From Candidatus Nitrotoga sp. BS (GTDB taxonomy: Bacteria; Pseudomonadota; Gammaproteobacteria; Burkholderiales; Gallionellaceae), in NCBI RefSeq assembly GCF_927797785.1, contig NZ_CAKMLL010000035.1, forward strand, positions 1 to 64,000: DNA of 64,000 nucleotides, read 5' to 3'. Both the position numbers and the translations under genes were made by a program. Below the pieces are notes generated by a model. That model was not told the DNA's origin and did not search any database. It saw nothing but the letters and a program-made list of their open reading frames with translations. Shown here piece by piece: positions 14,819 through 54,049 of this stretch. Every line of letters begins with the position of its first letter. Positions within the stretch are counted from its first letter, which is position 1.

Positions 14819-16048
14819 ATGCGTATTAGCACTAGCAGTATTTACAATGCCAACGTAAGATTGCTTAATCAGCTGCAGTCGCAGCAGTTGCACACCCAAC
14901 AGCAGATCGCCACTCAGCGACGCATCCTCACGCCAGCAGATGATCCGATAGCTGCAGCGCGGGTGCTGATACTATCGCAAGCAGATGCTACCAATTCACA
15001 ATTTGCGATTAACCGGAATACTGTGCAGCATTCCGCCTCGTTGTCTGAGACCGTTTTACAAAGCGTAACTAATTTGCTGCAAGACGTCAGAACAGTAGCG
15101 GTTAATGCAGGTAACGGAGGGTTGACTAGCTCTGATAAGCAAACCCTTGCAACGGATTTGAGTGGGCGTCTGGACGAGTTACTTTCGTTGGCAAACAGCA
15201 CAGATGGAGTAGGTAACTTTCTCTTTTCTGGTTTTCAGGGCAGAACACAACCTTTTTCCAAGAATAGTGTTGGTGTCATCAATTATCAGACAGATGGTGG
15301 TCAGCGCCTGATTCAGGTCGATAGTTCCAAACAATTGGCGGCTAACGATTCCGGCGCAGACATTTTTATGCGCGTCAAGAATGGCAATGGAACGTTTCTT
15401 ACCCAGTCGGCAAACACAAATACTGGGGGTGGCATCGTCAACCAAGGAGCGATTGTTGATCCGGCATTACTTACAGGAAATAATTATGAGGTGACATTCA
15501 CTGTGGCTGCCGGTGTGACAACTTATGGCGTGACAAATACTACGCCGGGAGCATCGGTGCCGGTGCCAATAGCAGCCGGTACTCCTTACGTCAGCGAACA
15601 GGCAATCAGTTTTGATGGCTTGCAGTTTGATGTCTCAGGCACACCAGCGAACGGGGATGTTTTCACTGTAACGCCCAGCACCAACGAAAGTATATTCGAG
15701 ACCATCTCTGGTTTGATAACTGCTCTGAGAACACCTAATCCACTGGGAGGGGCGGTTGCAGCAGCGGCATTTACCAATAGTAACAATCATGCGATAAACA
15801 GTCTGGATCGTGGTATCGATAGTGTGTTGACGGTACGTGCCTCGTTGGGGTCTCGCCTGCGCGAGCTGGATGCGCTGCAAAGTACAGGGGCCGATATGGG
15901 GCTGCAGTTCAAACAGACGTTATCGCAATTGCAGGATGTGGATTTGAACAAGGCGATCAGCGATCTAACCCAGCAAAAAATCACCCTTGAAGCAGCGCAG
16001 AAATCTTTTCTAGCGGTGTCTGGATTATCCCTTTTTGACTTTATGTAA
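14819..16048 (+). CDS. flgL: Flagellar hook-filament junction protein FlgL
   Basis: HAP3, second junction protein, related to flagellin, 409 residues. It begins MRISTSSIYNANVRLLNQLQ, with the conserved RILTPADDPIAAARVL near residue 36. C-terminal D0/D1 reads LNKAISDLTQQKITLEAAQK. Co-transcribed with flgK. Confidence 0.94.
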   Translation: MRISTSSIYNANVRLLNQLQSQQLHTQQQIATQRRILTPADDPIAAARVLILSQADATNSQFAINRNTVQHSASLSETVLQSVTNLLQDVRTVAVNAGNGGLTSSDKQTLATDLSGRLDELLSLANSTDGVGNFLFSGFQGRTQPFSKNSVGVINYQTDGGQRLIQVDSSKQLAANDSGADIFMRVKNGNGTFLTQSANTNTGGGIVNQGAIVDPALLTGNNYEVTFTVAAGVTTYGVTNTTPGASVPVPIAAGTPYVSEQAISFDGLQFDVSGTPANGDVFTVTPSTNESIFETISGLITALRTPNPLGGAVAAAAFTNSNNHAINSLDRGIDSVLTVRASLGSRLRELDALQSTGADMGLQFKQTLSQLQDVDLNKAISDLTQQKITLEAAQKSFLAVSGLSLFDFM

Positions 16049-48598: not shown

Positions 48599-50590
48599 TT
48601 ATAGATTGGCGAGTTGTGCGAGTTGTTGCGTTAAAAATATGCTGGTTTGGTTCATGCTGCTCAACAAAACATCCAGTGCGGTAAATTGAGCGCGAAGACG
48701 CCTTTCGGTGCTGACTAAACGAGTTTCCATAGCATCACGGCGGTTACCTATATCCTTAATGGAATTGTTAATGCCATCCGTTTGATTGGCAAGCACGCCG
48801 TTGTTGTTCAATATTGAGCTTGCAAATTTTTCGAGTGTAAATGCAAAGCCATTTGAAAAATTTAACTGGCCTCGGTCGCCTAATGCCCCCCCGTTAACGG
48901 TGATACTCAAGCCTTGCGAGCCGATTAATGTTTGACCGGAGCCAGTGCTGCTTACGCCACCGATGGATCCCGCAACGTTTACCCCAGCGAGTTGTGTCGG
49001 ATTCGCGCCAAGCAAGTCGCTGGCACCTATCCCGCCGATAGCAACGCTTGAGCTTGAGCCATAGCTAGACGAAGTGATCGAGAACACACCACTGCTTTGC
49101 GCAACCGCAACTGAAATGCCTGCGGTGCTAAACGCGGTTGCACCATTGATCTTGGCTTGTAATTCGGCAGCCAATGTTTGAGAAGTAAAAGTCCCGCTAT
49201 CCAGGATAATTGAAGCGCTCACACCATTAATAACCACATCCAGCGCATTATTTGCGCCTGTAATAATCGTGTTGGCGGCACTATTTCCGAGAGTGTAGCC
49301 TTGTGTGGCAATTTGGGTAATATTCACTGGAAAGCTACCAGGCTTGGTGCCGCTGGCGGCGGAGTTAAAGGTAACTAAACTATCCGTTCCTTTGCCGACG
49401 GAAGCAAATAAACTGGCAATGTCTTTGATATTGCTGGCTATTGCACTATTTAGTTTGTCATTGTCCAGCCCGAGGGATCCGTCTTTTTGGAATGAAATGC
49501 CTATTTGTGACAACGTGGACAGCGCGCCAGAAGCCCCTACGACTGGAGATCCGAGCGCGCTTCGCATCTGTGATTGCAGGGAACGCACGGTGCTATCGCC
49601 CTGCAAAATGGCCGCTTCTCCGGTTGCTGGGTTGTAAGCAGAAAGATCACTCAGTGTTTTGCTAAAGTCGTTGTAAGCTTGCACAAAGCTGGAGGCCGCT
49701 TTACTTATAGCGGTCGTGTCAGGAGCCACGGTTAACGTTGTCGGTGTTGTGGTGGTGTTTTTTAAATTGAGTGTAACGCCCTGTATTACATCGAAGACAG
49801 AATTGGAGGTCTTGCTGACTGATACGCCATTCACTTTGAAGTTAGCATTTGTCGCGGTAACCGTCTCGGACAAATTTTGTGTAGCCGCAGGATCGTGCGC
49901 TAACAGATTACTTACTTCTGCATCGCCGCTTACGGAAATTTTCAGATTGTTACTGACGCCTTTAGTGTCTGATGAAAGTGCAAGTCGAAATGGTGTGCCA
50001 CTGCCGTCATTGATGATGGTCGCTGTGACTCCAATTTTGGCGGCATTTATGGTATCGCGTATGCCTTGTAGCGAATTATTACTGCTGTCTATGGTAATAC
50101 TTTTGGTGCCATTACCGTTTGAGCTAAACGAGGTAACACCGGTATATTTTTTGGTTTCCGGATCCAGCGTCCCACCGTTGATGGTGCCGAAATCAAAAGT
50201 AACCGTAGTTTCAGTGCCATCGCCGATGGCGGCAGTGCTACTGGTTTGACCCGTGGCAGCAAGTTGCTGTGACTGAGCCAGGCTGTTTACTTCTAAAGAA
50301 TATGTTCCTGCAAACGCAATACTACTGGCGGTAGCAGACAAAACAGTGTCATTGGAAGAAGTGGCATTAAGACGGATAAACTTGCTCGAGCTGCTCAAAT
50401 CCTGCATGGTAGTTTGAAAGCTGGCCATGCCCCCTTTTATGCTACCGTAGGCAGTAAGCTTGGTTTGGTAGCTTGCTTCCGTAACAGCGAGTCTGTCGAG
50501 TGGTTGCCGCTCGACCACCATCAACTGACTTACAATGCTATTTACATCAAGGTTGGTTGATGAGCTAGCTGACGTGGTTGAGGTTACCAT
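48599..50590 (-). CDS. fliD: Flagellar filament cap protein FliD
   Basis: 663 residues. N-terminal coiled-coil region with LDVNSIVSQLMVVERQPLDR and the D1 start; Flagellin_IN-like motifs recur (GTYSLEVNSLAQSQQLAATG near 105; GNGTKSITIDSSNNSLQGIR near 162). C-terminal end NRRDAMETRLVSTERRLRAQ and FTALDVLLSSMNQTSIFLTQ is the family signature. Somewhat longer than average (about 450–600), with the extra length in the Ser/Gly/Ala-rich D2/D3 region. Confidence 0.94.
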   Translation of the reverse strand: MVTSTTSASSSTNLDVNSIVSQLMVVERQPLDRLAVTEASYQTKLTAYGSIKGGMASFQTTMQDLSSSSKFIRLNATSSNDTVLSATASSIAFAGTYSLEVNSLAQSQQLAATGQTSSTAAIGDGTETTVTFDFGTINGGTLDPETKKYTGVTSFSSNGNGTKSITIDSSNNSLQGIRDTINAAKIGVTATIINDGSGTPFRLALSSDTKGVSNNLKISVSGDAEVSNLLAHDPAATQNLSETVTATNANFKVNGVSVSKTSNSVFDVIQGVTLNLKNTTTTPTTLTVAPDTTAISKAASSFVQAYNDFSKTLSDLSAYNPATGEAAILQGDSTVRSLQSQMRSALGSPVVGASGALSTLSQIGISFQKDGSLGLDNDKLNSAIASNIKDIASLFASVGKGTDSLVTFNSAASGTKPGSFPVNITQIATQGYTLGNSAANTIITGANNALDVVINGVSASIILDSGTFTSQTLAAELQAKINGATAFSTAGISVAVAQSSGVFSITSSSYGSSSSVAIGGIGASDLLGANPTQLAGVNVAGSIGGVSSTGSGQTLIGSQGLSITVNGGALGDRGQLNFSNGFAFTLEKFASSILNNNGVLANQTDGINNSIKDIGNRRDAMETRLVSTERRLRAQFTALDVLLSSMNQTSIFLTQQLAQLANL

Positions 50591-51081: not shown

Positions 51082-53925
51082 TTATCTCAACAGTGATAAT
51101 ACGGTGTTTGGCAACTGATTCGCTTGTGCCAGCATCGCCGTACCTGCTTGTTGCAGGATCTGATTACGGGTTAGAGAGGCAGTTTCCATTGCGAAGTCGG
51201 TGTCCTGGATACGGCTACGGGAAGCCGACAGGTTCTCGATGGACGAGGACAGGTTGGCAACCACTGAGCTGAAACGATTCTGAATCGCACCCAGATTCGC
51301 GCGTGAGGTGTTCACCGTGGATAAAGCACCGTCAATCGTAGCCAAGGCGGCGGTCGCCAAGGCAGCGGTGGAGATGTCGATTTGCGAGAGTGCGGAAATT
51401 GATGTTGAGACAGACGCTGTAGTGGTACCAGCAGTAAGTCCAGCATTGCCAACCGCTGCGCCGCCGATCACGATACCGGCTTCGCTGATGCTGTTCAAAT
51501 CAATCGAGCCGTGGTTATTAGTGGCAACGGCTGCTACCCCAGCCAGTCCCGCTGACGCCTGCGTTCCCAGTTGAGCTGCGGTAAGTCCGGTTTGAGTGAC
51601 CAGTAACGCCTTGTTGGCTGCAGCAGTAGTTGCATCCGCAGCTGTACCACCGATATGTAAATTCAAACCGCCGGCGGCAGTTCCTGCCGTGATGGTGAGT
51701 TTCCCGTTAACGTCTGCTGTCGCCGTGCCGTTGACAGCAGCGCCACCAACAGCACCAGCCAGCGCGGAATTGATAGCTAATGCAATCGCATCGCCGTTTT
51801 GTTTAGCTGTGTTGCCGGCAGTCAGCGAAATAGCGCCGATGCTGATCGACGTGGTACCAGACGTCGCAACCAAAGTGCCTGCGGCGATAGTGGTGGTGGC
51901 TGCGCCGCTGGCAGCAGCGTCAAGGCCACCCACCAGAGTTCCTCCTGGGGTAGCGCCGATACCGGCAGTGGCGATAGTGCCTGCTATCGAAGTCACCAAT
52001 GCCGATGCCTTCGTTCCTAGTTGAGCAGTGGTGAATCCGGTCAGGGTAGACAGCGTGGCTCGGTCGGTCGTGGCAGTGGCTGAATCAACTGCCGTACCAC
52101 CCATGGCGAGCGTGTTGACGCCATTTGTACCTGCCGTGAACGTGATGATGCCAGCACCGTCTGCAACTGCAGAGCCATTGGCGGCGGCCCCGCCCGCTGC
52201 AGCGACAAACGCAAGATTCATTGCGGCTGCAATTGCGTCGCCGTTTTCTTTGGCCGTGTTCGCAGCGGCCAAGGTGATCTGTCCGAAGGTGATCGTACCA
52301 GCTGAATTGACCATCGTCAGCGCACCGGCGGCGATCACTTTTTCTGTACCTCCGCTGGCAGCCGCAGCCGCAGCCGCAACTTTTGTTCCTGCTGCGGCGG
52401 TAACAGAGCCATCTACCTTTGTTACTGCCACTTCACCTATCGTTCCCAATTGAGCCACAGTGAAGCCGGTTCTGCTGCTCATGGTAGCTTGATTGACCGT
52501 AGAGGTTGCGCTCATGCTGAGCTGAGCTTGAGACGATCCCGCTGTGAGGGTGACGGCTCCTGTTGTCCCATTTACCGTCGCAACGCCGTTGACCGCCGCG
52601 CCGCCCGCTGCGGCTGTCAGCGCGGTATTGAGCGCGAGTGCAATTGCATTACCGTCTTCTACTGCAGTGTTGGCGCCACCCAGCGAAATGGTACCGACAG
52701 AAATGGTGCCAGTACTCGTAACGACATTTAAGTCACCCGCAGCGATAGTCAAAGCAGTAGCTGGAGATGATGGCGCAATGCCCGTGAGCGCCCCTGACGT
52801 GGCGGCGGTGGCTGCGCTGGCTGTTGTGCCGTTTGCCACTGATATCACTGCTGTACCGGCAGTTGCTTTTGTCCCGACATTGTTAGAAGCGAAACCGGTC
52901 TTGGTCAGGAACGTAGCCTTGTCTGCCGCAGCTGTTGTAGTGTCAACTGAGGCGCCGTTCAGGCCGATGGCGATATCGCGCCCATCGGCTGCGGTCAGGG
53001 TGACCGCGCCGGAGGTGGCATCGGCCTTGGCGGACACACCGGTCTGAGTGGACACGTTATTGATCGCGGCGGCCAGATTGGCGCCCTGACCGGCTGCACT
53101 GCTGCCGGCAACGACTGTGCCGACATTGACGCCGTTAATGTTGAAAGTGTTAGCCGCAATTGCGGTGAACGCAGTTGCAGCGGTACCGGTGACGGTTGCG
53201 GCATTAGAGGTTGCAGTTACACCGGAGCTGGTGGACACGGCATTGATCGCTTGGGCAATCGAAAACGCACTGTTGGTACTTTGACCTGGCAAAGGCCCTG
53301 CCACAGAAGCCCCTACTTGTTGACCATTCAGGGTCAAGTCACCGGTACTCAATGCAACAAGCGATGAGTTACCAGTCACCGATGCAGAAACCCCCGTCGC
53401 TACGCCTCCCAGTTGTGAGGTGCGGGCGCTGGAGATGGATGAAATCTGGATGTTGTCGTTGGAGGTGCTGTTCGCGCCGACTTGGAAGTTTTGCGCGATA
53501 AACGAGCCGTCGAGCAGCTTCACGCCGTTGAACGTGGTGTTTTGCCCGACGCGGTCAATTTCGGAAAGCAGCTGGGTCACTTCGACCTGTAACGCGGCGC
53601 GGTCGGAAGCGCTGTTGGTGGCATTGGCTGACTGAATGCTTAATTCACGGATACGTTGCAAGTTGTTGGTTACTTCAGACAGCCCGCCTTCAGCGGTTTG
53701 TGCCAGTGAGATGCCATCATTGGCGTTACGCGAGGCTTGTTGGCTACCACGAATCTGGGAAGTCATCCGTTCAGAAATTGCCAGACCCGCAGCATCGTCT
53801 TTAGCACTGTTGATACGCAGGCCAGAAGACAGACGTTGCAAAGATGTTTCCAGTGCACTTTGTGATCTTGTTAGATTACGTTGCGAATTGAGAGAGGCAA
53901 CGTTGGTGTTAATTACTGCAGCCAT
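51082..53925 (-). CDS. fliC: Flagellin FliC, very large (947 residues)
   Basis: Filament subunit. N-terminal D0/D1 (about 1–170) is canonical: [40 protein letters not shown] and [21 protein letters not shown]-terminal D1/D0 (about 845–947) has [20 protein letters not shown] and [20 protein letters not shown]. The middle of about 670 residues is Ala/Gly/Thr-rich and built of four related modules. No frameshift is seen and both ends are intact. Most flagellins have 270–550 residues. A sigma-28-like site lies about 100 bp upstream. Confidence 0.96.
51562..53157 (-). repeat. Repeated modules in the flagellin variable region
   Basis: Four modules, ending at residues 352, 495, 638 and 788, so spaced 143, 143 and 150 residues. 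The last three share AAG-L…, an I(S/T)…G-I(S/T)L-(G/A)-NTA motif, a helix of the type [17 protein letters not shown] and a closing G(F/L)T-AQLGT. The first is shorter ([20 protein letters not shown]). Similar to flagellin hook IN motifs. Confidence 0.85.
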
Positions 53926-54022
53926 GATAGTTCTCCTTATAACTGGTTCGTTTGCGGCATTGTTGCCGATTACTTCGGTTGTCTTCAGATTGCGCTTGAC
54001 TAATCAACCTTAGTTGCACCAG

Positions 54023-54049
54023 TTAACGGAAAGAGCGGAAAAAACTTTA
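54023..54049 (-). promoter_or_regulatory. Sigma-28 (FliA) promoter of fliC
   Basis: On the minus strand TAAAGTTT (54049–54042) is followed by 11 bases and TCCGTTAA (54030–54023). The -35 matches the FliA consensus 8/8 and the -10 (GCCGATAA) 6/8, with ideal spacing. It leaves an untranslated leader of about 90 bases before the ATG at 53925. Confidence 0.85.

Follow-up and report, generated by a model that had tools for sequence, protein, structure and literature searches.

The flagellin of Candidatus Nitrotoga sp. BS is 947 aa long, about twice the usual flagellin length, and it reached this length through tandem copying of an outer module. The gene was located at positions 51082-53925 on the minus strand of the window (the whole stretch of DNA that was analysed, 64,000 nucleotides), where it forms a single open frame of 947 codons with no internal stop. 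A Pfam scan of the whole protein returned Flagellin_N (PF00669) at residues 5-141 (E 8e-45; 152.7 bits against a cut-off of 26.6) and Flagellin_C (PF00700) at residues 862-946 (E 5e-24; 85 bits against a cut-off of 23) and no further domain, confirming the 947 residues and the intact ends described in the earlier note; these ends we take to be the parts named D0/D1. The strong Flagellin_C match and the length of 947 aa ruled out a hook-associated protein. A broken gene was likewise ruled out by the one open frame together with the promoter-like and ribosome-binding-like sites (Table 1). The promoter-like site was found with what we take to be the sigma-28-type consensus, for which 0.34 matches with up to two mismatches are expected by chance in the window. 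The gene adjoins fliD in a flagellar cluster, as indicated by Pfam on the neighbour at 48599-50590. In the genome (a draft of 3.1 Mb in 121 contigs, 99.23% complete), Flagellin_N matched the 947-aa flagellin and a 411-codon frame at 14825, which looks like FlgL, and Flagellin_C matched the 947-aa flagellin only. As a single gene carries both flagellin domains, the filament of this bacterium is probably built from the 947-aa protein alone.

Table 1. Positions in the window of the flagellin gene, its parts and the neighbouring features.
Feature	Position	Strand	Basis
Flagellin gene	51082..53925	-	Open frame; PF00669 and PF00700 above cut-off; the genome's only gene with both
N-terminal D0/D1 part, residues 1-170	53416..53925	-	Flagellin_N at 5-141
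Short IN-like unit I1, residues 171-250	53176..53415	-	Flagellin_IN 19.8 bits; BLASTP to A, E 2e-5
Module A, residues 251-352	52870..53175	-	Flagellin_IN 26.0 bits alone; A4 E 3.1e-11, residues 227-352
Module B, residues 353-495	52441..52869	-	Self-comparison; A1 and A4 profile matches
Module C, residues 496-638	52012..52440	-	Self-comparison; A1 and A4 profile matches
Module D, residues 639-788	51562..52011	-	Self-comparison; A1 and A4 profile matches
Return segment and C-terminal D1/D0 part, residues 789-947 and stop	51082..51561	-	Flagellin_C at 862-946
Sigma-28-type promoter-like site	54023..54049	-	97 bases upstream of the ATG; 0 mismatches to the typed consensus
Ribosome-binding-like AAGGAG	53933..53938	-	Read off the sequence
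Neighbouring fliD (cap protein), 663 aa	48599..50590	-	FliD_N and FliD_C; without the module

The central region of the flagellin holds homologous repeated units, recognised by their z scores for B, C and D and by profile for A. B, C and D are tandem copies of one module, 143, 143 and 150 aa long, with pairwise identities of 46-55%. Pairwise BLASTP gave E values of 2e-9 to 4e-18. Smith-Waterman scores were 261-303, corresponding to z of 15.8-21.4; when each pair was shuffled 500 times, mean scores were 86-95 and the highest 123-143. The repeats are rich in Ala (25.7%), Thr (17.4%) and Gly (14.4%); since z lies far above that of shuffles of the same composition, this bias alone cannot account for the similarity. 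The self-alignment of the middle region, proposed earlier as a check, was significant among B, C and D. The earlier note had placed the module ends at residues 352, 495, 638 and 788, which was correct. Its regular spacing of 143 residues holds for the first two repeats, whereas the last spacing is 150, and its AQLGT closings occur in three modules but not in A, which closes otherwise.

Pairwise similarity of A to B, C and D was weak (Smith-Waterman z 3.2-6.9). Two profiles were also used: A1 was made from the three copies B, C and D, and A4, with 11 rows, was widened with seven modules from FliD and one from the flagellin of another genus, A being excluded. The A4 profile recovered A alongside B, C and D, and hhalign of a set of the same stretch as A from 14 flagellins against A4 gave a score of 56, whereas 100 column shuffles did not exceed 18 and the reversed profile gave 23.4. 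Scanned alone, A exceeded the Flagellin_IN (PF07196) cut-off of 22.7 bits, and the stretch 171-250 fell below it (Table 1). This stretch contains a fifth, shorter IN-like stretch at approximately 187-242, which is similar to A. Flagellin_IN was reported neither in the whole 947-aa protein nor in any of the 11 A4 rows, including B, C and D, at E of 10 or less. B-D do not reach the curated cut-off for membership, and their kinship with Flagellin_IN runs through the profile comparison with A alone; they look like long, diverged IN-type units. In our reading, the protein would have five IN-type units: a tandem array of three that are long and diverged, and two short ones belonging to the outer part that flagellins have in common.

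In a tree of the modules, A fell with its counterparts from three other flagellins (92/96), the seven FliD modules grouped together (100/99), and B, C and D lay on a shared branch with the last modules of two flagellins from another genus, G091 and G100 (99/97). A group of A with B-D was rejected (AU p 0.0024). Judged by these comparisons, A is an older part common to other flagellins, shorter than B-D and outside their group. Of the four related modules originally described, A is thus linked by the A4 profile but falls outside the group of the other three and has fewer residues. B, C and D did not form a clade by themselves in the tree, although such a clade was not rejected (AU p 0.275). With this point undecided, the duplications may be older than the lineage itself, or the array may have been imported as a block.

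Within the family, the A1 profile matched 11 of 158 genomes and A4 matched 12 of 158, namely the present genome, G091, G100 and nine genomes from two further genera. The module lies inside the flagellin in G091 and G100, the latter being matched by A4 and not by A1. Each of the nine (G021, G032 and G142-G148) carries one module copy in a frame of 865-896 codons. The G145 frame, the one scanned with Pfam, was confirmed to have FliD_N and FliD_C; the other eight are called FliD-like on the basis of similar starts, similar ends where the locus reaches, and a flagellin alongside. In these proteins (loci L043-L051 and L053-L056), the module sits soon after the N-terminal part. The flagellin frames of the nine genomes have at most 292 codons among the matches listed, a bound that leaves aside frames of 401 (G021) and 410 (G145) codons with weaker Flagellin_N matches and a FlgL-like look. 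All A1 and A4 matches in the present genome fall inside the flagellin, and its own FliD has no module. FliD_C in this 663-aa FliD spans residues 246-648 against a profile of 236 positions, indicating that this protein has a separate insertion. At E 0.001, neither A1 nor A4 matched any of the 18 congeners. The case that the earlier note had named as speaking against duplication, relatives with an equal number of unrelated domains, was not observed. In the order sample, A1 matched 1 of 399 genomes, the present one. In the phylum sample, A4 matched 2 of 398, the present genome and G692 (E 6.8e-4). The G692 frame lies opposite another long frame, peptidase-like by eye, and is therefore most likely a chance frame; we judged this match spurious. 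A plasmid search with residues 353-788 returned no match.

Of these results, we had least expected to find one module in both flagellin and FliD. It could mean that filament subunit and cap protein have exchanged a single outer module in this family, some members carrying one FliD-like copy beside short flagellins and others multiplying it in the flagellin with none elsewhere. We consider such an exchange quite unlikely; if true, a surface property that one lineage shows at the tip alone would extend over the full length of the filament in another.

Flagellin_N matched in at least 13 of the 18 congeners, and the 11 flagellins that could be read whole were 497 aa (G005, G006, G007 and G015), 632 aa (G013) or 716-717 aa (G002, G008, G009, G012, G017 and G018) long. 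A contig end truncates the flagellin of G014, and G016 has a 259-codon frame alone among the matches listed. The four 497-aa proteins matched residues 2-343/345 and 791/799-947 of the present protein, and the two matching pieces lay no more than 21 bases apart, as expected if B-D were inserted. The 717-aa proteins have a different outer region without strong repeats (z of 3.1 or less in the two tested). Gene order was conserved where the loci reach far enough, with what we take to be a GGDEF gene, then the flagellin, a gene that we take to be FlaG, and FliD. In G018, a second flagellin-like gene with frames of 107 and 664 codons, apparently in pieces, lies about 8 kb from the intact one (contig 4, 84310-86464).

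The ends of the present flagellin (1-120 and 906-947) are nearer the 717-aa congener type, a likeness that is clearest at 1-40 and 81-120, and its inner part (121-905) is nearer the 497/632/770/486-aa type, which hints that the gene is a mosaic. In two-part trees, the alternative placement, and with it a single history of the gene, was not rejected in either part (p 0.125 and 0.114), and a stricter grouping of the present flagellin with the 497- and 632-aa congeners alone was rejected in both (p 0.0018 and 1.3e-5). An AccA tree placed the species with G012, a genome with a 717-aa flagellin (95/89). Passages of PMC7018530 discuss how outer regions of flagellins are replaced when the conserved ends recombine.

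We compared eight further flagellins from this family whose frames exceed 600 codons (G133, G180, G026, G127, G128, G139, G151 and G102). Whole-protein BLASTP self-comparison was uninformative, as it returned nothing even for the present flagellin, the positive control. Internal repeats were therefore scored by Smith-Waterman comparison of protein segments with one another, each pair being set against 60 shuffles, and here the same protein works as a control. Strong internal repeats were found in G133 (approximately 1276 aa, locus L090; z up to 28.5) and G180 (approximately 932 aa, locus L092; z up to 22.5). The z reached 7.1 in G026 (approximately 717 aa) and 4.4 in G127 and G128, and stayed below 4 in G139 (approximately 897 aa), G151 and G102. 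The A4 scan, which covered these long flagellins except G139, gave no match in G133 or G180, and when the present protein, G133 and G180 were compared with each other over their central regions, z was only 1.1-2.5. The G180 unit is a tandem repeat of approximately 88 aa with a strand-NG-strand-helix pattern by eye. Because the three sets of repeats are mutually dissimilar, long flagellins in this family seem to have grown more than once, from different units. The size of the present flagellin is accordingly not unique, as the family also holds proteins of approximately 1276 and 932 aa with other repeats. With at least three long flagellins built on different units, the family is suited to asking why outer domains are added and to testing length against filament width or behaviour.

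This repeated growth from different units would also fit neutral growth, in which tandem duplication is simply tolerated in the outer region and the array serves no particular function, as would the variation of module number, and even of the outer region itself, between close relatives. We regard this as a minor possibility; this apparently sole flagellin has kept its frame open over approximately 1.3 kb of repeats that have diverged, and on general reasoning a longer subunit is costlier to make.

The reading that we prefer, and hold to be quite probable as a whole, is that of a sole subunit with an ordinary core and five IN-type outer units, of which B-D were duplicated in tandem, giving a thicker filament. 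The middle of a flagellin chain faces the outside of the filament. This position is also described in parts of PMC6248924 and PMC8931119. The D0/D1 ends would form an ordinary filament core, and from the position of D2 the chain would run outward through the two short IN-type units (approximately 187-352) and then B, C and D before returning to the core. The last three would have arisen by in-frame tandem duplication followed by divergence to about half identity, and each is probably a separate small domain with the order strand-strand-helix-strand-strand-helix. Every subunit would thus carry a string of outer domains, which, packed round the filament, would add to its radius and give a bulky or sheath-like surface. 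Such a surface may in turn change stiffness, waveform, drag or surface properties. We infer separate folding, outward projection, a thicker filament and any benefit, the projection and the greater thickness being drawn from general flagellin architecture and one published case. Two structure models had mean pLDDT of 42.6 and 44.6, from input alignments of three rows each, and at this confidence they do not establish the fold; both predicted helix and strand runs at the expected places. A search for solved relatives of the module with A4 returned eight chains at E of 1 or less, the best at E 0.014, which we judged to be chance. The most likely effect of B-D is to make the filament thicker or sheathed. 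The suggestion in the earlier note that the domains could change resistance to mineral encrustation found no support: MtrB_PioB, the single iron marker tried, had no match in the genome, a result that leaves the metabolism unsettled.

B-D could instead be adhesive, binding surfaces, sugars or minerals, and have been multiplied for attachment and not for filament mechanics. The same type of module in FliD-like proteins of nine genomes, whose flagellins have at most 292 aa among the matches listed, fits a surface-exposed part, and the weak profile matches included two pilus-protein chains (E 0.2-0.27, not significant). However, B-D contain no binding or enzyme domain of Pfam, and IN-type units are structural parts common in flagellar axial proteins. 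We think adhesion unlikely and favour the thicker filament made by tandem duplication.

That the repeats are an assembly artefact (a false tandem join) or a chance likeness of Ala/Thr/Gly-rich sequence is extremely improbable, since, despite the draft genome of 121 contigs and the strongly biased composition, z stands 16-21 above shuffles of the same composition, related modules occur in 11 other genomes, and B, C and D are only 55-57% identical in DNA with no exact shared run longer than 11 nt, so that reads would not be easily confused. The GC content of the modules (0.584-0.590) matches the 0.586 of the adjoining stretch 171-352, and their third-position GC (0.51-0.53) is somewhat lower than that of the remaining gene (0.57-0.59). 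Self-alignment, DNA identity, profiles and the module tree thus support duplication followed by divergence, as had originally been proposed.

The modules resemble Flagellin_IN in that A alone is above its cut-off and is tied to B-D by profile comparison; they differ in that B-D have 143-150 aa against a motif of 55 positions, which Pfam did not report in them. Among flagellins with several outer domains beyond the core, those of EHEC H7, EPEC H6 and Achromobacter (there D2-D4) are described in parts of PMC8931119 as pairing these domains into a sheath round the core, with a more stable intermediate waveform. The word "tandem" is absent from that text, whereas the present flagellin is built of tandem modules. 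A further close likeness is to the large and giant flagellins of Oceanospirillales (Bermanella marisrubri and Oleibacter marinus), whose central region, according to passages of PMC6248924, is enlarged by internal duplication and whose filaments are at least 30 nm thick; the authors call the advantage of this unclear, a view that we share for the present flagellin. As in those passages, the D0/D1 ends are kept while the centre is enlarged by duplication of internal repeats, relatives form a stepwise size series, and the genome has no flagellin besides the long one. The lineage is unrelated to the Oceanospirillales cases and, by description, the units differ, with two DE regions and in some a DX insert there and three long and two short IN-type units here. 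In the classes used there, 947 aa is "large" (above 800) and short of "giant" (above 1000). With large flagellins through internal duplication already in print in PMC6248924, this mode of growth is known, and the present gene is one more clear example of a flagellin lengthened by tandem duplication.
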